A DNA stretch of 64,000 bases from Kitasatospora setae KM-6054 (GTDB lineage Bacteria > Actinomycetota > Actinomycetes > Streptomycetales > Streptomycetaceae): the NCBI RefSeq assembly GCF_000269985.1, contig NC_016109.1, forward strand, positions 496,001 to 560,000. Reading direction: 5' to 3'. This document shows positions 11,230 to 54,928 of this stretch, one piece after another; the first letter of the stretch is position 1; each line of letters opens with the position of its first letter. Position numbers and translations under genes: made by a program. Under the pieces are notes generated by a model. It worked only from the letters and a program-made list of their open reading frames with translations, was not told where the DNA came from and ran no database searches.

Positions 11230-11356
11230 CTGGACTCTCCTCGCACGCGCGTGGTGCGCGCTGGTGTTGGTCGGACGCTCCGGTCCATGATAGTTGAAGA
11301 TGTAACGATCTGCTGGACGTGTCCGCCGGCCCCGGCGGCACGGGAGGGAGCACCAG

Positions 11357-12358
11357 ATGAGCACCACCGAGAACGGGCCGGTCCCCACGACCGACCCCGC
11401 CGCCACCGCGAACACCCCCACCGTAGAGGGCGCCCCGGCCGCCCGGACCGGCGGGGCCGAGGTCCTGCCCCCGCGGGACGTCCCGCTCGGCGGCCCGCGC
11501 GCGATGACCGTCCGCCGCACCCTCCCCCAGCGCGAGCGCACCCTGATCGGCGCCTGGTGCTTCGTCGACCACTACGGTCCGGACGACGTCGCCACCACCG
11601 GCGGCATGGATGTCGCCCCGCACCCGCACATCGGCCTGCAGACCGTCAGCTGGCTGTTCAGCGGCGAGATCGAGCACCGCGACAGCCTCGGCGTGCACGC
11701 CTTCGTCCGCCCCGGCGAGCTCAACCTGATGACGGCCGGGCAGGGCATCGCGCACTCCGAGACCTCCACCGCCGCCACCACCGTCCTGCACGGCGTCCAG
11801 CTCTGGGTCGCCCTCCCCGACGCCCACCGGCACACCGCCCGCGACTTCCACCACCACGTACCCTCCCCCGTCCCGCTGCCCGGCGGCGGCGAGGCCCGGG
11901 TCTTCCTCGGCACCCTGGCCGGCGACACCTCCCCCGTCCCCACCTTCACCCCCCTGCTCGGCGCCGAACTGACCCTCCCCGCCGGCGCCACCACCACCCT
12001 GGACGTCGACCCCGCCTTCGAGCACGGCCTCCTCGTCGACCAGGGCGACGTCCTCTTCGCCGACACCCCCCTGCACTCCGCCGACCTCGGCCACCTCCCG
12101 CCCGGCCGCACCACCCTCACCGTCACCAACACCTCCGCCGCCCCCGCCCGCCTCGTCCTCCTCGGCGGACCGCCCTTCGGCGAGGACATCGTCATGTGGT
12201 GGAACTTCATCGGCCGCACCGGCGAGGAGATCGTCCAGGCCCGGCTCGACTGGGAGAAGGGGACCCGGTTCGGCGAAGTGCAGGGCTACCCGGGCGACCG
12301 CCTGCCCGCGCCGGAACTACCGAACGTCGCCCTCAAGGCGCGCGGAAACCGCCACTGA
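11357..12358 (+). CDS. Pirin-family protein
   Basis: A 333-residue two-cupin protein of the pirin family (metal-binding; some members are quercetinases or redox-sensitive regulators). The metal ligands are visible in the N-terminal cupin: HPHIG, the following EIEHRDSLG and QGIAHSE. The second half has the pirin C-domain with LLGGPPFGEDIVMWWNFIGR. About 35 residues of Thr/Ala/Pro-rich sequence precede the domain. ATG at 11357 follows GGGAGGGAGC. The sequence AGTTGAAGATGTAAC in the divergent gap (about 11292-11306) is a weak inverted repeat that may be a control site. Confidence 0.9.
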   Translation: MSTTENGPVPTTDPAATANTPTVEGAPAARTGGAEVLPPRDVPLGGPRAMTVRRTLPQRERTLIGAWCFVDHYGPDDVATTGGMDVAPHPHIGLQTVSWLFSGEIEHRDSLGVHAFVRPGELNLMTAGQGIAHSETSTAATTVLHGVQLWVALPDAHRHTARDFHHHVPSPVPLPGGGEARVFLGTLAGDTSPVPTFTPLLGAELTLPAGATTTLDVDPAFEHGLLVDQGDVLFADTPLHSADLGHLPPGRTTLTVTNTSAAPARLVLLGGPPFGEDIVMWWNFIGRTGEEIVQARLDWEKGTRFGEVQGYPGDRLPAPELPNVALKARGNRH

Positions 12359-12430
12359 ACTGCACATGCGCCACCGCTCGGCGGTCGCGGCGAGCAGCCT
12401 CGGCGAGATCGCCCGCGACCGCCTTCGGCC

Positions 12431-12434
12431 CTAG
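12431..12434. repeat. Target-site duplication CTAG (left)
   Basis: 4-bp direct repeat with 16143-16146; CTAG-like 4-bp targets are typical of the IS701 family. Confidence 0.85.
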
Positions 12435-13838
12435 TACTGCAACAGTGCTTACCCTGACGAGGCTTCAGCTCTTGGGCTGTGGCCTCGTCTCTTGTAATGG
12501 CTGGTCCGGGCCTGTTGTTGGCGTCTGCGGCGCCATCGGGACCAGTGCAGGACGTGGCCTATGCTGCGGCGGACAGGCCGGGTGAGCTGCGTGATCAGCC
12601 GGCGGATCTCGGGGAGGGTGAGGGGTACCAGGTCTGGCGTTCGAGCGGGTCCGGCCCCTTTTCGAGCTGCTGGGCCCGCACGACGGTGAGGTAGGCGTGG
12701 GCGGCCATGGCCAGGGTGATGTGCCGGTACCAGCCCGGGTGGCGGCGGACCTGGTAGTCGTCGAGGCCGCACTGGCCTTTCGCGGTCTGGAAGCACTCCT
12801 CGATCGCCCAACGGGCGCCCGCGACGGCGATCAACTCGTTGAGTGTGGCCTCGGCCGGCGCGTAGGCGATGTAGTAGGCGACCTTCGTGGGATCGCTGAT
12901 GCTGCGGCGGGCCAGGACCCAGTGCCTGCGGTCAGGACGGTGCCAGGGGCGGACCTCCACGCGAGCCCAGTCGTAGATCCGCAGGCCGTGGGCGCCCTCG
13001 CCGCAGGAGCGGCGCTTCCACCTCTGCCGGGGCAGGTCGGCGACCAGGTCGTGCAGCCGATGGTCCATGGCCTGCCAGGTGACGACGGTGTCGTGGCTGG
13101 TGGTGGCCATGACGTGGAAGACGTCGGCCTGCTCGAGTTCGTAGCGCCAGCCCTTGCTGTAGCCGTAGCCGGCATCCGCGGTCACCCAGCGGAACGGGAT
13201 CTTGTCGTCGATCGCGCGGCGGACCATCGCCCGTGCGAGCTGGACCTTGGTGGCGAACTCGACCTCGTCGCCGATCCCGGCCGTTCGGCAGCGCACGCGG
13301 TCGTCGGTCCAGGACTTCGGCAGGTAGAGCGCCCGGTCGATCAACGTCCGGCCCAGCTCGCTGGAGTAGGCGAGGAAGACTCCGACCTGGCAGTTCTCGG
13401 TCCGCCCCGCGGTGCCGGAGTACTGCCGCTGGACGCCGGCTGACCGCACGCCCTTCTTCAGGAAGCCGGTGTCGTCCACGATCAGCACGCCGCAGGGATC
13501 CGCCAGGTGCTCGACGACGTACTCGCGCACGTCGTCGAGCACCCCGTCCGCGTCCCAGTCGATGCGGTTCAGCAGCCTCTGGATCCGGTCCGGCCCGCCA
13601 TGGCCGGCCTCCTCCGCCACCGTCCAGCCGTTCTTGCGCTCCAACGGCGCCAGCAGGCCCCGCATGTAGGCCAGTGCCGACTCGCGCGACTCGCTCCGCG
13701 CGAACCGGTGAGCAAACCGCTCGTGCAGGTCGGCCAGCCCGTCCGACCAGCGACGAGCATCGACCTCGGATATGTCTCCACCCATGAACCGCCCAACGAG
13801 CGAACCCAACAACCGTCACGGTAAGCACCGTTGCAGTA
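12435..13838 (-). mobile_element. IS701-family insertion sequence, copy A
   Basis: 1404 bp with terminal inverted repeats starting TACTGCAAC: TACTGCAACAGTGCTTACCC at the left end and TACTGCAACGGTGCTTACCG (complement) at the right end, differing at two positions. The transposase reads leftward. The right-hand CTAG is shared with copy B. Confidence 0.9.
12595..13785 (-). CDS. IS701-family transposase, copy A
   Basis: A 396-residue DDE transposase of the IS701 family. Catalytic residues sit in LIVDDTGFLKKG (first Asp), WVTADAGYGYSKGWR (second Asp) and RWAIEECFQTAKG (Glu, with the Y/W-rich context of IS4-related groups). The ATG at 13785 (MGGDISEVDARRWSDGL) is preferred; an in-frame TTG at 13812 would start nine codons earlier. 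The frame is intact and its product is identical to copy B, so both copies could be active. Confidence 0.9.
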   Translation of the reverse strand: MGGDISEVDARRWSDGLADLHERFAHRFARSESRESALAYMRGLLAPLERKNGWTVAEEAGHGGPDRIQRLLNRIDWDADGVLDDVREYVVEHLADPCGVLIVDDTGFLKKGVRSAGVQRQYSGTAGRTENCQVGVFLAYSSELGRTLIDRALYLPKSWTDDRVRCRTAGIGDEVEFATKVQLARAMVRRAIDDKIPFRWVTADAGYGYSKGWRYELEQADVFHVMATTSHDTVVTWQAMDHRLHDLVADLPRQRWKRRSCGEGAHGLRIYDWARVEVRPWHRPDRRHWVLARRSISDPTKVAYYIAYAPAEATLNELIAVAGARWAIEECFQTAKGQCGLDDYQVRRHPGWYRHITLAMAAHAYLTVVRAQQLEKGPDPLERQTWYPSPSPRSAG

Positions 13839-48222: not shown

Positions 48223-49290
48223 ATGGAACGGACCACGGGGCAGCAGCCGACGCGGAGGCAGGAACCGGGGCCGGGGCGGGGAGCGGGGCCGGGGCGGGGA
48301 GCGGGGCCGGGGCGGGGAGCGGGGCAGCCTCCGAGCCGCGTGCTGACCGAGCTGACGGGCGACGCCGACGCGTTCGCCAAGGCCGTGGCGGAGGGCATCC
48401 CGCAGGTGTTCCGACCCACCGGGCGGCCCGCCGGACTGCCCGGGGTCGAGGAGTTGGAGACGGTACTGAACGGCGGCCTGCTGCGCGTCCCGTACGTGGA
48501 GATGGTGCGGGACGGCGCGGTCGTCGAGCCCGAACTCTTCTGCGCCACCCGCACGGTGGCCGGGCGGCGCGAGAGCGGCTGGGCGGACCCCGCCCGGATC
48601 TCCGCCCTGCTCGCCGAGGGCGCCACCCTGCTGCTGCCCCAACTCGACCAGTGGCACGCCGGGGTACGGGCCATGGCCACCGACATCGCCCTCCACCTGG
48701 GCCGTCGCACCGAGGCGTTCTGCTTCACCACGGGCGCGGGCCGCCGCGGCCTGGACGTGCACCGCGACGACGCGGACGTCCTGGTCGTCCAACTCGCCGG
48801 CGCGAAGGACTGGACCGTCCACGAGCCCCCCGCCGACGGCCACTGGCGCCCCGGCCTCGCCCCCGCCCCCGGACCGGTCGCCCTGCGCACGGCCCTCACC
48901 CCCGGCGAGATCCTCTACGTCCCGCGCGGCGCCCCGCACACGGCAACGGGCCACCGGGGCCTGTCGGTCCACCTGTCGTTCACCATCCGGGAGGCAACCA
49001 CCGGACGCCTGCACGCCGCCCTCGGCGAATTCCTGACCACACCCGGCCTGCCGACCGGTGACCTGCCCGAACGCCCGGACACGAGCGAGGTACTGGCCAC
49101 AGCCGCCGAGGTACTGCGACTCGGCCGCGAGCGCCTGGCCGCGCTGACCCCGGAGGAGCTGCTGCAGCTCGCCCGGGGGCCGCTGCCCGCCGGGGCGGCG
49201 GCTGCGCCGGGTGCGACGAGCCTGGCAGGGGCGGGGCTGGCGGGAGCGGGGCTGCTGGGGGTTGAGTGGGGCATGCGGGACACGGCATAG
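48223..49290 (+). CDS. Cupin_4 / JmjC-like dioxygenase
   Basis: A 355-residue Fe(II)/2-oxoglutarate-type oxygenase fold of the Cupin_4 group (relatives hydroxylate ribosomal proteins or peptides). Metal ligands: His180-x-Asp182 in LDVHRDDADV and His239 in PRGAPHTATG. A GRGAGP repeat from an 18-bp tandem (48268-48325) forms the N-terminus (residues 15-34); the C-terminus is a helical winged-helix-like region. ATG at 48223 after GAGGAGAGGG. It is the neighbour of the lanthipeptide genes and could act on the precursor, but the two are convergent and separated by the 14-bp repeat array, so the link is only positional. Confidence 0.75.
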   Translation: MERTTGQQPTRRQEPGPGRGAGPGRGAGPGRGAGQPPSRVLTELTGDADAFAKAVAEGIPQVFRPTGRPAGLPGVEELETVLNGGLLRVPYVEMVRDGAVVEPELFCATRTVAGRRESGWADPARISALLAEGATLLLPQLDQWHAGVRAMATDIALHLGRRTEAFCFTTGAGRRGLDVHRDDADVLVVQLAGAKDWTVHEPPADGHWRPGLAPAPGPVALRTALTPGEILYVPRGAPHTATGHRGLSVHLSFTIREATTGRLHAALGEFLTTPGLPTGDLPERPDTSEVLATAAEVLRLGRERLAALTPEELLQLARGPLPAGAAAAPGATSLAGAGLAGAGLLGVEWGMRDTA

Positions 49291-49614
49291 GTGACGCGTC
49301 ACGCATGCCGTGACATGCGTGACGTGGCAATACATGACGCGACATTGATGACACGTCACGCATGACGGGACATGTGTGACGTGACATCGATGCCTCATCA
49401 CACATGTCGCGACATGCATGACACGTCACGGGTGACGCGTCATCAATGCAGCGTCACCCGTGTCGCGACACGGATGACGTGCGATCCATGACGTGACACC
49501 GATGACGCAGCAACGTATGCCGCGACATCGATGACGAGGCATGCATGACGCGACACACGTGATGGCGCATGCGTGTCACAACACGCATGACGCGACACGC
49601 ACGACAGGGCGCGG
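49291..49614. repeat. Array of 23 degenerate 14-bp tandem repeats
   Basis: Starting directly after the cupin stop codon, the sequence divides without gaps into 23 units of 14 bp (two of 15 bp, at 49319 and 49502), consensus RTGACGCGACAYGC. Examples: GTGACGCGTCACGC (49291), ATGACGCGACACGC (49587), ATGACACGTCACGC (49348). The first four bases (RTGA/RTGC/RTGT) and CA at positions 10-11 are the most constant. AT content is higher than in neighbouring DNA. It lies between two convergent 3' ends (cupin and lanA), so it is not a promoter. Open frames crossing it are by-products of the repeat. Confidence 0.9.
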
Positions 49615-49710
49615 CGCCCCGGACCGCCCGAACGGCCCGTGGTACCGCGCCCGTCGTAGCCGTGCAGCAGCCGACTCAGCGCACCGGACCGATGGGCCCG
49701 GTCACGCCGG

Positions 49711-49842
49711 TCAGATACAGAACGGGCGGGTGCAGGAACCCTCACAGGAGAGGCTCACGGCGGCTTCCTCGTGCTCGGGGCTCTCGGCGGCAACGAGGTC
49801 CTGCACGTCGAGGTCGAACAGCTCCTGCATGTCGGTGGCCAT
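49711..49842 (-). CDS. Class I lanthipeptide precursor
   Basis: A 43-residue peptide: leader with the class I LanB-recognition motif FDLD (residues 9-12, in ELFDLDVQDL), an acidic spacer (ESPEHEEAA), and a short core ending SLSCEGSCTRPFCI. The core has three Cys (33, 37, 42) and Ser/Thr at 30, 32, 36 and 38, enough for up to three (methyl)lanthionine rings plus a dehydro residue. Likely leader cleavage near the AAV segment (27-29), giving a product of about 14-16 residues. ATG at 49842 with GAAGGGA upstream. Divergent from LanB. No protease, transporter or immunity gene is adjacent. Confidence 0.85.
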   Translation of the reverse strand: MATDMQELFDLDVQDLVAAESPEHEEAAVSLSCEGSCTRPFCI

Positions 49843-49892
49843 GGGGGCGTCCCTTCGTCGGTGCCGCGACTGGCCGCGGCGGGCTGCTGCGG

Positions 49893-49922
49893 ACGCTAGG
49901 CATCCTGCGTATGCATCGACAA
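49893..49922 (-). promoter_or_regulatory. Candidate promoter of the precursor gene
   Basis: Minus strand: TTGTCG (49922-49917), 18-base spacer, TAGCGT (49898-49893), about 45 bases before the precursor start. Matches a housekeeping-type promoter in spacing and partly in sequence. Confidence 0.4.
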
Positions 49923-49981
49923 GGAGTGCGCACGGATGAATGGACAAATTCAGCCAACTCTTGATGATCCTCCGTCAACCA

Positions 49982-50010
49982 TGGACAGTTCGGGGACGTC
50001 GGGATAGAAC
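49982..50010 (+). promoter_or_regulatory. Candidate promoter of the lanB-lanC operon
   Basis: TGGACA (49982-49987), 17-base spacer, TAGAAC (50005-50010), 134 bases before the lanB start. A 13-bp tandem repeat (ACCGCAGCACAGG at 50069 and 50082) lies in the leader. Confidence 0.4.
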
Positions 50011-50144
50011 GGTCCGGCCGGATCACCCGGCACACCAGCACCACGACTACGCAGCACGGCACCGCCGTACCGCAGCACAGGACCGCAGCACAGGACCGCA
50101 CGGCCGGACGAAAGCACGGCAGTACCAGGCACTCGGGGAGCACG

Positions 50145-53100
50145 GTGGGGAAGAAGTCGCACACGGCACACCAGGACGCGATCTTCACCGCCACCGGCCC
50201 CGTTCTGCTCCGTACTCCCGCGCTGCCCCTCCCGCCACGCCATCGCCGCGCCGAACCCGCAGCATCAGCCAGCCCCGCCGGCTCTGCCGACTCTGCCCAC
50301 TGGGGAAGCCCGGGAGGCGATCCGCTCGGCGAGCAGATCGGTGAGTGCTTCGCCGACCGGCTCGTCGAGGCCGCCGCCGATCCGGTGCTGCGCGAGGCGA
50401 TCGAGATCTCCAGCCCTTCGCTGGCCGACCTGCTGGAGCGGGCCGTCCCGGCCGTGGCGGCTCCCGAGGACGGACCTCGCGCCGCCGAACTCCATCTCGC
50501 CGAGCTCCGCCCCGCCGCGCTGCGGCGGGCGGCCGAGGCGGTCGGGCGGTACCGGTTGCGGATGGCGACCCGGGCGACGCCCTTCGGGTTGATGGCCGCC
50601 GTCGGGACGGCCCGCTTCGGGGCTCGGGCCGAGGTTGGTTGGGAGGGCGGCGAGCGCCGCGCGTTCCGTCCGGACCTGGGCTGGTTGCTGCCGTTGTTGG
50701 ACCGGCTGCGCACCGATCCGCAGGTGCTGGGGTCGCTGCTGCTGGCCGTGGACCAGCAGGCCGTGCTGCGCGGGGACCGACTCGTCCTGCCGTACCTGCC
50801 CGACCGCTCGACCCTGCCGGAGAGCACGGCGGAGGCCGTTCCCGGCGCCGGCCGGCCGGTCGCCGAGCGGACTGTCCGCGCGACGCCCGTCGTGCGTGCC
50901 GTCGTCCGGTTGGCCGAACGGCCTGTGTCGCACGCCGAGTTGCTGGCGGGGTTGGCCGCCGGGTTCCCGACCGCGCCCGCCGAGGCGATCGCGGGGCTGG
51001 TCCGCACGCTGGTCGCGCAGGGGTTCCTGCTCACCGACCTGGTGCCGCCGCCGCACAGCACCGACCTGCTGGGGCACGTCCTGGAGCGGCTGCCCGGCGA
51101 GCACCCGGTACGCGGCGAACTGGCGGCGGTTCGCGGCCTGTTGGCGCGGGCGGCGGGGTTGCCGCGGGGGCGGGCCACCGGTGTGCTGCGGGAGGCTCGG
51201 CGGCGGATGCTCCGACTCGGGCCCGCCGAGCGGCCGTTGCACGCGGACCTCGCGCTGGTGGGCGGGGTGGTGCTGCCCGAGCAGGTGCGGGTCGAGGTCG
51301 AGCAGGCCGCCGGTGTGCTGTGGCGGCTCTCCCCGCCGGTCGGCGCGCCCGAACATCTGCGCTCCTACCACGCGGAGTTCGTCGAGCGGTACGGCATCGA
51401 CAGTCCCGTCCCACTGGCCGAACTGCTCGACGCCGACACCGGTCTCGGCCCGCCCGCCGGCTACCGCCGCCCGGTCGGCCCGCGCGGCGCGGCGAACCCG
51501 GAGCCCGCCCGTGCCCGGACCGAGCGGGAGGCCGCCCGGAACCGGGTGCTGGCCGAACTGGTCGCGGGCGCACTGGTCGACCGCGAGCCCGGCGGTCCGC
51601 TGCCGGAGGTGGTCCTCGACGACGAACTGTTGGACCGACTGGCCCCGTTGGCGGAGGAGAGCGAGGAACAGGAGAGTCAGGCGGGCAGCGCCGCCGAGAC
51701 TCCGCCCGCCTCGCTGGAGCTGTACGCCGAGCTCGCCGCCGACTCGCTCGCCGAGCTGGACGCCGGGCGGTTCCGCCTGGTGCTCTCCCCCACCGCCGGC
51801 AGCGACCGGGCCGGAGCCACCTTCGGCCGCTTCGCCTCCCACCTCGCCAACTCCGGCTCCAACTCCGGCTCCGGCTCCGGCTCCGGCGGCTCCGACCCCG
51901 ACAGCTACGGCAACGACAGCTACGGCGACGACAACAGCAACGGCGGCGGCAGGCTGCTCGCCGAGGCAGCCGGAGCACTGCCCGATGATGACGAAGTCCT
52001 GTACGCGCACCTGGAGTTCACCCCGTACCGCCCCCGGCACGCGAACATCGCGCTCACCCCGCGCTGGCTCGGCCACCGGGTCGTCGTCAGCGCCTTTCCC
52101 GACCCGAGCGGCCCGGCCGTCCTCGCGTTGGACGACCTGGTCGTCGTGGCCGATGCCGAGCGCCTCGGCGTGTACTCCCGCGAACTCGGCCGGGAGGTGC
52201 GGGCGGACGCGCACCACGCGCTCAACCTCCGTACGGGTGCGCCGAACGCGGCCCGGTTCCTGCAAGAAACGGCGCTCGGCGGCCACCGCCCCTGGCAGCC
52301 CTGGGACTGGGGTGCGGCGGCGAGTTCCCCCGTGCTGCCGAGGGTCCGCCGGGGGCGGGTCGTCCTGGCGCCCGCGTCCTGGCGGCTGACCGCTCCTGTG
52401 CCCGACTCGGCAGCGCCGTACGGGGATTGGGCCGACGGCCTGGCCCGCTGGCGTCGGCGGTGGGGCGTTCCCGCCGCCGTGCGGCTGCTCAGCGGGGACC
52501 AGCGGATCAGTCTCGACCTGGACGATCCGTGGCACCGCCGCCTGCTGTACGGGCAGTGCCGGGCCGACCGGCCCACCGTCCTGCAGGAGGACCTGGGCGC
52601 CGGTTCGTCCGGCGGCTGGCTGCCCGGTCCGGACGGCGCGCACGCCGCCGAGATCGTCGTCCCGCTGCGCCCGGCCGGCACCGGCCCCACCGCGAAGGCC
52701 ACCGCCGCGAAAGCCACCACCGCGCAGGCCAGCGCGCAGGCCACCGCGCGGACCGGCGTACCGGCCCGCCGGGTGCTGCCCGCGCCGCACCCCCGTACGG
52801 TCGAACTCCCGGGCGGGGAATGGCTGTTCGCCCGGATCGGGGCCGTCGAAACGAGGCACGACGAGATCCTCGCCGACCGGCTGCCCGAGCTGCTGGCCCG
52901 GGTTCCCGGGCAGGTGGACCGCTGGTTCTTCGTCCGCTACCGGGATCCGGCGCCGCACCTGCGGCTGCGCTTCCACGGCGAACCGTCCGCGCTGACAGGC
53001 GAGTTGCTGCCCGCGCTGCACGACTGGGCGCACGGGCTGCGCCGGTCCGGGCTGGCCGCCGACCTGCGGCTGGAGGGGTACGCGCCCGAGGCCGACCGGT

Positions 53101-53696
53101 ACGGCGGACCGGAGGTGCTGGCCGACGCGGAGCGGGTCTTCCACGCCGACAGCCTGGTTGCGCTGGCCGCGCTGCGGCTGGTCCGGACGGCCCGGGGTAC
53201 GCCCGGTGAGCTGCTCGCCGCCGCCAACCTGACCGCCACCGCCCGGGACTTCCTGGCCGCCCGTCCCGTCCCGGTGCCGGTCGGGCCGTGGGTCGCCGCG
53301 ACCTATCCCAAGTCCGAGGCGCACCAACGGATTTTCCGCACCCAGCGGGCCGCCGCACTGCGCGCCATCGGCCCGGACGGCCCCGCCGCGCCCGCCGGCG
53401 GTCTGCTACCTGCCGACGCCGCCCTCGCCGGGGCGTGGCGGCTCCGCGCCGAGCGGCTCGCCGCGTACGCGCCCCGGCTCGCCGGCCCCGTCGCGGGGCC
53501 CGCGCTCGCCTCGCTCCTGCACATGGGCCACAACCGGCTGATCGGCATCGACCGGGAGGCCGAGCGCCGCGCCTACGCCCTCGCCCGCGGCGCCCTCGAA
53601 GCCCACCGGGCCCGCCATCGCACCACGACCACCACCACCACCACCGCACCGGCCCCCACCGCACCGGCCCCTGTCACCCCGGACGAGGAGCGATGA
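50145..53696 (+). CDS. Full-length LanB lantibiotic dehydratase
   Basis: Class I dehydratase that uses glutamyl-tRNA to glutamylate and eliminate Ser/Thr of the precursor. The 1183-residue protein has the Lant_dehydr_N/C regions (AVGRYRLRMATRATPFGLMA; YRPRHANIALTPRWLGHRVV; LNLRTGAPNAARFL) and a C-terminal SpaB_C elimination domain from about residue 890 (WLFARIG...DRWFFVRYRDPAPHLRLRF). Low-complexity inserts at about 565-602 (SGSGSGSGG, Asp/Asn/Tyr-rich), about 845-868 (AKATAAKATT) and the Thr-rich tail make it longer than NisB-type enzymes. GTG at 50145 after GGGGAG. Overlaps lanC by ATGA. Confidence 0.9.
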   Translation: MGKKSHTAHQDAIFTATGPVLLRTPALPLPPRHRRAEPAASASPAGSADSAHWGSPGGDPLGEQIGECFADRLVEAAADPVLREAIEISSPSLADLLERAVPAVAAPEDGPRAAELHLAELRPAALRRAAEAVGRYRLRMATRATPFGLMAAVGTARFGARAEVGWEGGERRAFRPDLGWLLPLLDRLRTDPQVLGSLLLAVDQQAVLRGDRLVLPYLPDRSTLPESTAEAVPGAGRPVAERTVRATPVVRAVVRLAERPVSHAELLAGLAAGFPTAPAEAIAGLVRTLVAQGFLLTDLVPPPHSTDLLGHVLERLPGEHPVRGELAAVRGLLARAAGLPRGRATGVLREARRRMLRLGPAERPLHADLALVGGVVLPEQVRVEVEQAAGVLWRLSPPVGAPEHLRSYHAEFVERYGIDSPVPLAELLDADTGLGPPAGYRRPVGPRGAANPEPARARTEREAARNRVLAELVAGALVDREPGGPLPEVVLDDELLDRLAPLAEESEEQESQAGSAAETPPASLELYAELAADSLAELDAGRFRLVLSPTAGSDRAGATFGRFASHLANSGSNSGSGSGSGGSDPDSYGNDSYGDDNSNGGGRLLAEAAGALPDDDEVLYAHLEFTPYRPRHANIALTPRWLGHRVVVSAFPDPSGPAVLALDDLVVVADAERLGVYSRELGREVRADAHHALNLRTGAPNAARFLQETALGGHRPWQPWDWGAAASSPVLPRVRRGRVVLAPASWRLTAPVPDSAAPYGDWADGLARWRRRWGVPAAVRLLSGDQRISLDLDDPWHRRLLYGQCRADRPTVLQEDLGAGSSGGWLPGPDGAHAAEIVVPLRPAGTGPTAKATAAKATTAQASAQATARTGVPARRVLPAPHPRTVELPGGEWLFARIGAVETRHDEILADRLPELLARVPGQVDRWFFVRYRDPAPHLRLRFHGEPSALTGELLPALHDWAHGLRRSGLAADLRLEGYAPEADRYGGPEVLADAERVFHADSLVALAALRLVRTARGTPGELLAAANLTATARDFLAARPVPVPVGPWVAATYPKSEAHQRIFRTQRAAALRAIGPDGPAAPAGGLLPADAALAGAWRLRAERLAAYAPRLAGPVAGPALASLLHMGHNRLIGIDREAERRAYALARGALEAHRARHRTTTTTTTTAPAPTAPAPVTPDEER

Positions 53697-54928
53697 CGCC
53701 CACCGAAGCGCTGCAGGCGGTCACCGCCCGACTGTCCCGCCCCGACGCCACCGCGACCACCGCCGACAGCGCCGGACTCGGGACCGGGCGCAGCGGCGCG
53801 GCGCTCGCCCTCGCCGTGCTGGCGGGGCCGGACCAGGAGGTGCGCCGGGCCGCGCACGGGCACCTCGCGGCGGCGGTGCGGGCGCCGGGCGCGATGCGGG
53901 GCGGTGGGCTCTACTCGGGCGCCGCCGCGGTGCTGTTCGCCGCCCGGGTGATGGCCCGGGGGCCGGGCGAGTACCGAGGTCTGGTGGACACCCTGACGCC
54001 CCGGGTCGCGGAGTCCGCCGCCGGACGGGCGGCCGCGCTGCGGGCCGACCTGGCGGCGGGGGCGGGGCTGCGGGCGCACACCTTCGACGCCGTCTCGGGC
54101 GCGGCCGGTCTGGGCCGGCTGCTGCTGGAGCTGGCGCCGGACGGCCCCGGCACGGCCGAGGTGCTGTCCGCGCTGGTCGAACTCGCCGCCCCGACGGACG
54201 GACCGCTGCCCCGCTGGTGGACCGCGGCCGCCCCCGACCCCGAGCCCGTGCCGGCTCCCGAACCCGTGCCGGCCCCCGGGCCCGGAGGTGGCCCGACACG
54301 CTCCCGGGGTCACCTCAACTTCGGTCTGGCGCACGGGATTCCGGGCCCGCTGGCGCTGCTCTCGCTGGCCGGGGCACGGAATGTCCGGGTGCCCGGTCAG
54401 GACGAGGCGGTCGAGGCGCTCGCGGATCGGCTCATCGCCCATCAACTGCCTTCCGGTGGCTGGCCGTTGACGCTGAGCATCGAGCAGGCGGAACGGAGAG
54501 CCGTACCGGCCGACCCGCCGGTCCGGGCGGCCTGGTGCTACGGCACGCCCGGTGCGGCGCGGGCACTGTTCCTGGCCGGACGGGCGCTGGGCCGCGCCGA
54601 CTGGCAGCAGGCCGCCGTCGCCGCACTCGACAACGCCCTGGCGGACAGCGGTAGTTGGAACCTGAACGGCCCGGGCCTCTGCCACGGCACCGGCGGCCTG
54701 CTGCGGATCGTCCAGCGGATGGCCGCGGACTCCGGCTCCGCCGCCCTGGCCGCCCGGCTGCCCGCCCTCGCCACGGCGACCGCCCGGGACCTCACCGCCG
54801 CCCTGGCCGCCGACGCCCCGGCCACCCTCCTGGAGGGCACCGCCGGCGCGGCCCTGGCGCTGCACGGCCACCTCAACTCCCCTGCGGGGGAAGGGACCGA
54901 CTGGGACGCCTGCCTGCTCCTGAGCTGA
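53693..54928 (+). CDS. LanC lanthionine cyclase
   Basis: Zinc enzyme that adds Cys thiols to dehydro residues to close the rings. The 411-residue protein has the zinc ligands Cys282 (AWCYGTPG) and Cys330-His331 (GLCHGTGG), and the catalytic-region His214 (NFGLAHGIPG). A Pro/Glu-rich linker (PEPVPAPEPVPAPG) interrupts the barrel near 185-200. Start ATG at 53693 overlaps the LanB stop (ATGA), indicating coupling. The operon ends here: no export ATPase, protease or regulator follows. Confidence 0.9.
   Translation: MTPTEALQAVTARLSRPDATATTADSAGLGTGRSGAALALAVLAGPDQEVRRAAHGHLAAAVRAPGAMRGGGLYSGAAAVLFAARVMARGPGEYRGLVDTLTPRVAESAAGRAAALRADLAAGAGLRAHTFDAVSGAAGLGRLLLELAPDGPGTAEVLSALVELAAPTDGPLPRWWTAAAPDPEPVPAPEPVPAPGPGGGPTRSRGHLNFGLAHGIPGPLALLSLAGARNVRVPGQDEAVEALADRLIAHQLPSGGWPLTLSIEQAERRAVPADPPVRAAWCYGTPGAARALFLAGRALGRADWQQAAVAALDNALADSGSWNLNGPGLCHGTGGLLRIVQRMAADSGSAALAARLPALATATARDLTAALAADAPATLLEGTAGAALALHGHLNSPAGEGTDWDACLLLS

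Follow-up and report, generated by a model that had tools for sequence, protein, structure and literature searches.

Gene content of the locus

The subject of this report is a compact group of four genes in a 64,000-nucleotide stretch of the genome of Kitasatospora setae KM-6054 (contig NC_016109.1, positions 496,001 to 560,000; this stretch is called the window, and its numbering is used below), which probably directs the synthesis of a short class I lanthipeptide. In order, the genes are that of a JmjC_2 (PF08007) Fe(II)/2-oxoglutarate oxygenase of 316 amino acids (48340-49290, plus strand), recognised by its Pfam match, its structural model and its presence at 11 of 11 related loci; lanA, an open reading frame with homologues that encodes a 43-residue precursor with an FDLD leader (49711-49842, minus strand); lanB, for a full-length class I dehydratase with glutamylation and elimination domains (PF04738 and PF14028; 50145-53696, plus strand); and lanC, for a cyclase (PF05147; 53693-54928, plus strand). 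The JmjC gene faces lanA from the side opposite lanB; its start was set by alignment, with an uncertainty of a few codons, and its frame is open from 48037.

A preliminary description of the window had reported a minimal class I lanthipeptide locus with a very short core, formed by the FDLD peptide on the minus strand and divergent, full-length LanB and LanC genes joined by ATGA. The arrangement is confirmed by coordinates and domains, the LanC start at 53693 lying inside the LanB end at 53696, and the class is borne out by both domain sets and by the conservation of the precursor. The locus is not minimal in the sense intended, however: the JmjC oxygenase had been overlooked, and, as it is a constant fourth member at every locus, the reading as a system of LanA, LanB and LanC alone is rejected.

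Distribution of the four-gene unit

Within the genus, 10 of 70 genomes carry a precursor homologue; within the family the figure is 11 of 394, made up of the genus ten and one from another genus, and both counts include the host's own genome. One of these loci (L008) belongs to Streptomyces sp. NRRL WC-3742; L008 and L023 are a single stretch and were counted once. A conserved precursor beside homologous LanB and LanC genes, which the preliminary description had suggested looking for, is present in these 11 genomes. JmjC adjoins lanA at all 11 loci, LanB stands beside lanA, and LanC is found wherever the contig reaches. All four genes are present at nine loci, the other two being cut by contig ends: the L021 contig ends inside LanB, a LanC of the same type lying on another contig of that genome, and L022 retains only the first part of LanB.

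In the stretches compared (mostly about 10 kb on each side of the unit), no other flanking gene is common to more than two loci, and where two share one they are mainly L026 and L027, a close pair; of the window genes called at 40-64 kb, only JmjC, LanB and LanC have relatives at those loci. Since the flanks are otherwise unshared, the unit is sharply bounded, and by this comparison of sequences it seems to occupy many different places. No export, protease or immunity gene was found within the unit common to the loci. In L030, the most distant member, an ATP-binding cassette (ABC) transporter gene (11270-13153) adjoins the JmjC gene; none was called beside the unit of the window.

The precursor and its core

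The precursor, MATDMQELFDLDVQDLVAAESPEHEEAAVSLSCEGSCTRPFCI, is encoded on the minus strand by positions 49842 to 49711, with AAGGGA upstream. The core has the consensus S-x-S-C-[ED]-G-S-C-x-R-P-x-C-I, the aligned cores reading S-[LIVF]-S-C-[ED]-G-S-C-[TFH]-R-P-[FYWL]-C-I; that of L029, SDLCVTGSCHRPYCI, deviates by one inserted residue. Allowing for this insertion, Ser30, Cys33, Gly35, Ser36, Cys37, Arg39, Pro40, Cys42 and Ile43 are constant in the 11 precursors; for L030 an upstream ATG was taken as the start once the cores had been aligned. As every core holds three Cys and at least three Ser/Thr residues, up to three rings are possible from the sequence. The Thr38-Cys42 ring of the preliminary description does not stand as a conserved feature, since the relatives have T, F or H at position 38.

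A promoter-like pattern, TTGTCG-18-TAGCGT (49893-49922, minus strand), precedes lanA and is conserved in the aligned loci: TTG and CCTAnCGTCC are invariant and the spacer is 17-19 (10 loci, L022 left out). It is read as promoter-like by comparison with the promoter consensus. Moreover, in nine gapless aligned precursors the mean nonsynonymous (dN) and synonymous (dS) rates are 0.13 and 0.36, with a ratio of 0.37, and of 0.29 for the core alone. The occurrence of homologues at the equivalent position in ten other genomes, the low dN/dS and the kept upstream pattern indicate that the precursor is not a chance reading frame.

No precursor match was obtained in NCBIfam or Pfam at expectation values (E) up to 1, no homologue was found among PLSDB plasmids, and six core or leader strings gave no match in the open-access papers searched. 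The motif SxxxCTP(G/S)C, as printed in the accessible part of a 2020 survey for lipid II binders of the nisin/planosporicin type (PMC7268733), is absent from all 11 cores, in agreement with the earlier view that the core is unlike those of nisin and planosporicin. The accompanying view that it is not of the FxLD/methyltransferase type also holds, for there is neither an NCBIfam precursor match nor any methyltransferase family in the scanned neighbours.

LanB and LanC

LanB, which starts with GTG, matches PF04738 over positions 1-649 of 649 (629 bits) and PF14028 over 1-253 of 255 (163 bits); the solved chain closest in sequence is the lantibiotic dehydratase 5ehk (E 5.7e-118). LanC matches PF05147 (E 2.8e-37, 128.5 bits) and, among solved chains, 8byk and NisC. 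Residues C282, C330 and H331, which we take to be its metal ligands, are invariant in 10 of 10 aligned LanC proteins, one of them from L009, a locus without JmjC, and their equivalents are also carried by the aligned stretch of 8byk. The host genome has a second LanB/LanC locus (L183, G000:C1:6584500-6603500), whose precursor, ..LTNDGCNSTCATACVSCP, is presumably of the known FxLD type.

The JmjC oxygenase

The JmjC protein matches PF08007 with E 1.8e-14 on the longer frame (53.8 bits against a curated cut-off of 22). H141, D143, H200 and K156 are invariant in the 11 proteins of the unit; among 52 homologues, H141 and D143 are kept in all and K156 and H200 in 51. We take the first three to be the HxD...H metal triad and K156 to be the lysine binding 2-oxoglutarate. 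A profile of the 11 proteins, compared with PDB sequences, finds NO66 (E 4e-16), MINA (5e-11) and YcfD (9e-6), and the NO66 alignment has in register the HxD, the second His and the Lys that follows the first His by 15 residues.

An AlphaFold model built from the 52 homologues has a mean predicted local distance difference test score (pLDDT) of 89.4; it is ordered to about residue 290, with pLDDT below 50 for residues 297-316, at the end of the chain where the ribosomal oxygenases have a winged-helix domain. Its best structural matches are NO66 (Z 23.9, root mean square deviation (rmsd) 6.8 over 283 residues), MINA53 (Z 22.6) and YcfD (Z 19.0). It supersedes an earlier, poorer model from 11 sequences (pLDDT 74), which matched NO66 with Z 21.5 and an rmsd of 2.5 over 203 residues.

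The only substitutions at these positions in the 52 aligned rows occur in one tandem pair (L062, 8249-10052), of which one JmjC has Met for the conserved lysine and the other Tyr for the second histidine.

The wider JmjC clade and the C-terminal isoleucine

A search of the 394 family genomes for JmjC matches with E up to 1e-60, with five first-look candidates scored per genome, gave at least 70 places in 52 genomes. The group belonging to the four-gene unit stands out at E 3e-149 or better, in 12 genomes including a lone gene in L098, and the remainder follow, none of them better than 4e-83. All 70 places fall within the 61 loci examined; five further loci from a class search (L065-L069) are weaker than the limit and fall outside the 61, and a motif look revealed no F/LxLD precursor in them.

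A precursor was found at 51 of the 61 JmjC loci, and 47 of the 51 end in Ile, against a background of 7 in 694 called genes at the same loci, this background consisting of genes of 130 amino acids or more and not of short ones. Six precursor types can be distinguished. In type A, the lanthipeptide of the window, all 11 end in Ile. Type B comprises 27-residue peptides, mostly ending in HAWxLHVI, with a cytochrome P450 (P450) at 19 of 19 loci and Ile at the end of all 19. Type C has two tandem JmjC genes and a precursor of the form CxxCYPDV[IM], or close to it, with seven Ile and three Met among ten. Peptides with GG leaders make up type D, accompanied by a condensation-domain gene (6/6 Ile), and type E (two Ile and one Leu of three). 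Finally, type F is a second lanthipeptide with an FELD leader, the ending ..SWPFYCKTTI, and LanB, LanC, JmjC and ABC transporter genes (2/2 Ile). Over these types the residue before the last varies (C, V, L or T) and the last is nearly fixed. In the JmjC tree, whose bootstrap has not settled and in which a stray non-JmjC row (L128_5043) is kept on a very long branch, enzymes from loci of one precursor type mostly fall together; types A and F form two distinct clades, and L098 branches within A.

Homology search or clustering supplied the precursors, except that those of L102, L111, L136, L064, L103 and L122 were identified from a gene call or a leader, and those of L123, L130 and L143 from the leader. 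These last three loci shared the C39 transporter and condensation genes of type D but first gave no precursor. They served as a trial of a simple sequence rule, namely that a JmjC gene of the clade is adjoined by a short Ile-ending peptide: in the DNA beyond the transporter, with only a GG leader sought, one peptide was found in each, ending in HCVI, TCVI and SCVI, so that three further precursors came from the rule. Conserved short frames set aside by eye were carrier-protein-like (L123, L130, L143), LuxR-like (five loci) or of the MGASGA.. type (five loci), together with a DTSWGG peptide of type C and antisense and low-complexity frames.

Several of these loci deserve mention in their own right. 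Tandem JmjC pairs near a small signal-peptide-like open reading frame occur in L061 (8344-10609), L062 (8246-10342), L063 (9016-11279), L132-L136, L139 and L140; this frame, which ends in CEGCHPDVI in L134 and occurs two or three times in L132, L133 and L136, possibly encodes an undescribed JmjC-modified secreted peptide. L102 (8051-10574) and 18 related loci are compact units of a 27-residue precursor (e.g. MKMVKAIVKRFKKDEDLANHAWVLHVI), P450 and JmjC. In L103 (4858-12663) and L122 (4154-11615) an FELD leader and the core ..ATGSWPFYCKTTI accompany LanB, LanC, JmjC and an ABC transporter. GG-type leaders followed by just four residues, LEVI and ELVI, adjoin JmjC in L064 (10780-10887) and L125 (5792-5899); the nearby genes look luciferase-like by eye, and the peptides are possibly carriers rather than products. 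In L104, L105 and L129, a JmjC of the same clade adjoins TfuA-like genes, joined in L104 and L129 by a YcaO gene; no precursor was found at these three loci.

Control loci without JmjC

LanC matches were found in 192 of the 394 family genomes. Forty LanC loci served as controls, being the 39 best-ranked among the matches listed, outside the four-gene unit and L103/L122, plus L183 of the host, and no JmjC match was present in the stretches fetched for them. A short F/LxLD reading frame occurs in 29 of the 40, and none of the 29 ends in Ile, against 13 of 13 with JmjC (Fisher p about 4e-11 by rows). Candidates of L171 and L173 are doubtful and L145, L176 and L179 carry extra unlikely frames, none of them Ile-ending; likewise, in L023, L026 and L103 an unlikely frame not ending in Ile is listed beside the true precursor. 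The most instructive comparison is provided by L162 and L166, whose precursors are akin to those of L103/L122 up to SWP and which lack JmjC: they continue as ..SWPYSC..SRC[RC], as against ..SWPFYCKTTI.

On the P450 side, a second control comprised 14 loci that lack JmjC and whose P450s are related (38-40% identity); their atropopeptide-like precursors end in Tyr (seven), Ile (six) or Val (one).

Proposed biosynthesis and alternative explanations

The gene set, its conservation, the domains, the metal-site residues and the statistical link between the JmjC clade and Ile-ending peptides are demonstrated; from them we infer each chemical step, the ring pairing, the target residue and the roles that follow. 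The locus is best read, with a probability of roughly 0.6, as a compact set of four genes making a short class I lanthipeptide with an oxidative modification, which JmjC introduces at the C-terminus or close to it. LanA would be expressed from its own promoter; LanB would bind the FDLD leader and dehydrate Ser residues of the core, and LanC would close thioether rings on the three constant Cys residues, most likely from Ser30 to Cys33 and from Ser32 and/or Ser36 to Cys37 and Cys42. Before or after ring formation, JmjC would act on the peptide, with Ile43 as the preferred target and hydroxylation as the preferred reaction, since the known relatives hydroxylate side chains. Enzymes encoded elsewhere would remove the leader and export the product. 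The gene context points to LanA, rather than to a ribosomal protein, as the probable JmjC substrate.

A wider proposal, whose chances we consider about even, is that the whole JmjC clade forms a portable tailoring module of ribosomally synthesized and post-translationally modified peptides (RiPPs), which would read a C-terminal Ile and install one common oxidation, either hydroxylation or oxidative cleavage of the end. The module would have been joined to two lanthipeptide types, to the P450 (atropopeptide-like) type, to the secreted peptides with double JmjC and to the GG-leader types, the rest of the peptide being irrelevant. If true, this would define a tailoring enzyme directed to the C-terminus and usable on many peptide scaffolds.

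Other roles for the enzyme have to be weighed against C-terminal hydroxylation. JmjC could act, like YcfD, on the constant Arg39 of the Arg-Pro motif, Ile43 being constant for some other reason such as ring packing. YcfD hydroxylates an arginine of ribosomal protein L16; it is among the solved relatives, and Arg39-Pro40 is constant in all 11 precursors. The sister precursors of the clade, however, share no Arg-Pro near their mostly Ile-ending termini, the histidine hydroxylase NO66 outscores YcfD and, in the accessible parts of the relevant reports, BipG and PbsQ acted on ornithine and not on arginine, all of which makes the arginine an unlikely target. Oxidation might also fall on the Ile alpha-carbon, so that cleavage would leave a C-terminal amide on Cys42 and the Ile would be sacrificial, as is Gly in the amidation of animal peptides. 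A last residue that is nearly fixed after a variable one (C, V, L or T) would fit such a reaction, but the side-chain chemistry of the known relatives speaks against it, and we know of no JmjC_2 enzyme with alpha-carbon hydroxylation or amidating cleavage; we regard amidation as rather improbable. A third possibility, that JmjC just lies nearby and serves some other purpose, the unit making a plain class I lanthipeptide, would fit L098, a genome with a lone JmjC of the clade; it is very improbable, given that JmjC adjoins lanA at each of the 11 loci while the flanks are otherwise not shared, and given the separate JmjC-LanB-LanC grouping in L103 and L122.

Several of the observations weigh against the favoured reading, among them the constant Arg39-Pro40, the kinship with an arginine hydroxylase and the single genome, L098, whose JmjC lacks the other three genes. 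To these must be added the ten of 61 JmjC loci without a precursor (L098, L104, L105, L113, L126, L127, L128, L129, L137 and L141), of which L113 is cut by a contig end; the second conserved short peptide of type C (..DTSWGG.C.LPLC.P[LE].. at five loci, with a shorter form at L061), which never ends in Ile and was left out of the precursor count by judgement; the Ile end of six of the 14 JmjC-less P450 precursors; and the relatedness of the rows compared, so that p weakens to 0.002 when only the two JmjC lanthipeptide lineages are counted.

Flanking DNA and neighbouring genes

The gap between JmjC and lanA measures 420 bp in the window, as against 51-173 bp at the ten other loci. It holds a degenerate 14-bp tandem repeat array (49292-49605, no strand), with about 22 copies of TGACGCGACACGCA-like units, and, between the convergent genes, a G+C-rich inverted repeat (49607-49652, no strand). 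The latter is a possible two-way terminator of JmjC and lanA; it is weak in the window (z -1.7), but three relatives were compared and all have a strong one at the corresponding position (z -7.3 to -8.5).

Further out, the window contains two serine-hydrolase genes of family PF00144 at 41.8-44.3 kb; genes for a PP2C phosphatase and a HATPase_c_2 protein follow at 55.3-56.9 kb, and a large gene of the hybrid kinase/SpoIIE kind at 57.6-61.4 kb. The preliminary description had stated that no transporter, protease, immunity gene or regulator is adjacent. This stands for the shared unit, and no transporter was found among the Pfam-scanned neighbours; it has to be tempered by the nearness of the genes just listed. 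Export genes are found in relatives, with an ABC transporter at both type F loci and a C39 transporter at four of six type D loci (L100, L123, L130 and L143). Together with L030, this indicates that export is linked in relatives and not in the unit of the window.

Comparison with known systems

No description of JmjC in class I lanthipeptide biosynthesis was found in the open-access papers searched, which is weak evidence of absence, subscription papers lying outside their scope. In the accessible text of the 2020 lanthipeptide survey, PF03171 oxygenases are reported in lanthipeptide clusters, and the terms 'cupin' and 'hydroxyl' are not found (PMC7268733). A 2025 survey, as far as its accessible part goes, describes bacterial homologues of fusions of a RiPP recognition element with JmjC in RiPP-like contexts (PMC12710340). 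In the accessible part of a survey of atropopeptides from 2024, the tailoring enzymes named do not include JmjC (PMC11450843); 'Jumonji' in that paper is a strain name, and was ruled out as a mention.

With the class I lanthipeptides nisin, microbisporicin and planosporicin, the window shares a full-length two-domain LanB, the LanC metal ligands, an FDLD leader and a Ser/Cys core. It differs from them in a core of about 14 residues without SxxxCTP(G/S)C and with a constant C-terminal Cys-Ile, and in a unit with a constant JmjC and no shared transporter, protease or immunity gene. An FDLD-like leader is also common to the FxLD-type lanthipeptides, from which the window is set apart by its core, the lack of an NCBIfam precursor match and a shared unit without a methyltransferase.

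The JmjC protein resembles the JmjC_2 ribosomal oxygenases (NO66, MINA53, YcfD/RoxA) in family PF08007, in its fold and following helices and, for NO66, in the register of metal triad and lysine; unlike them, it is shorter (316 amino acids) and is encoded beside short peptide genes. A sister JmjC branch adjoins a P450 sharing 38-40% identity with the P450s of the 14 JmjC-less loci with AWYxWx-like precursors, AWYIWY being the core of tryptorubin. In contrast with the window, such atropopeptide loci have no LanB or LanC, and their precursor is unrelated. A parallel is found in the biphenomycin-type RiPPs, where a JmjC/cupin Fe(II)/2-oxoglutarate enzyme hydroxylates a ribosomal precursor: according to the accessible parts of two reports, BipG, PbsQ and BpmG hydroxylate ornithine in the precursors (PMC12707348, PMC12257519). 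There, as far as the same sources go, the ornithine is made by an arginase and the enzymes work with a multinuclear non-haem iron-dependent oxidative enzyme (MNIO) and a radical S-adenosylmethionine enzyme, without LanB or LanC, whereas the minimal unit of the window would join a putative JmjC hydroxylase to the machinery of the class I lanthipeptides.

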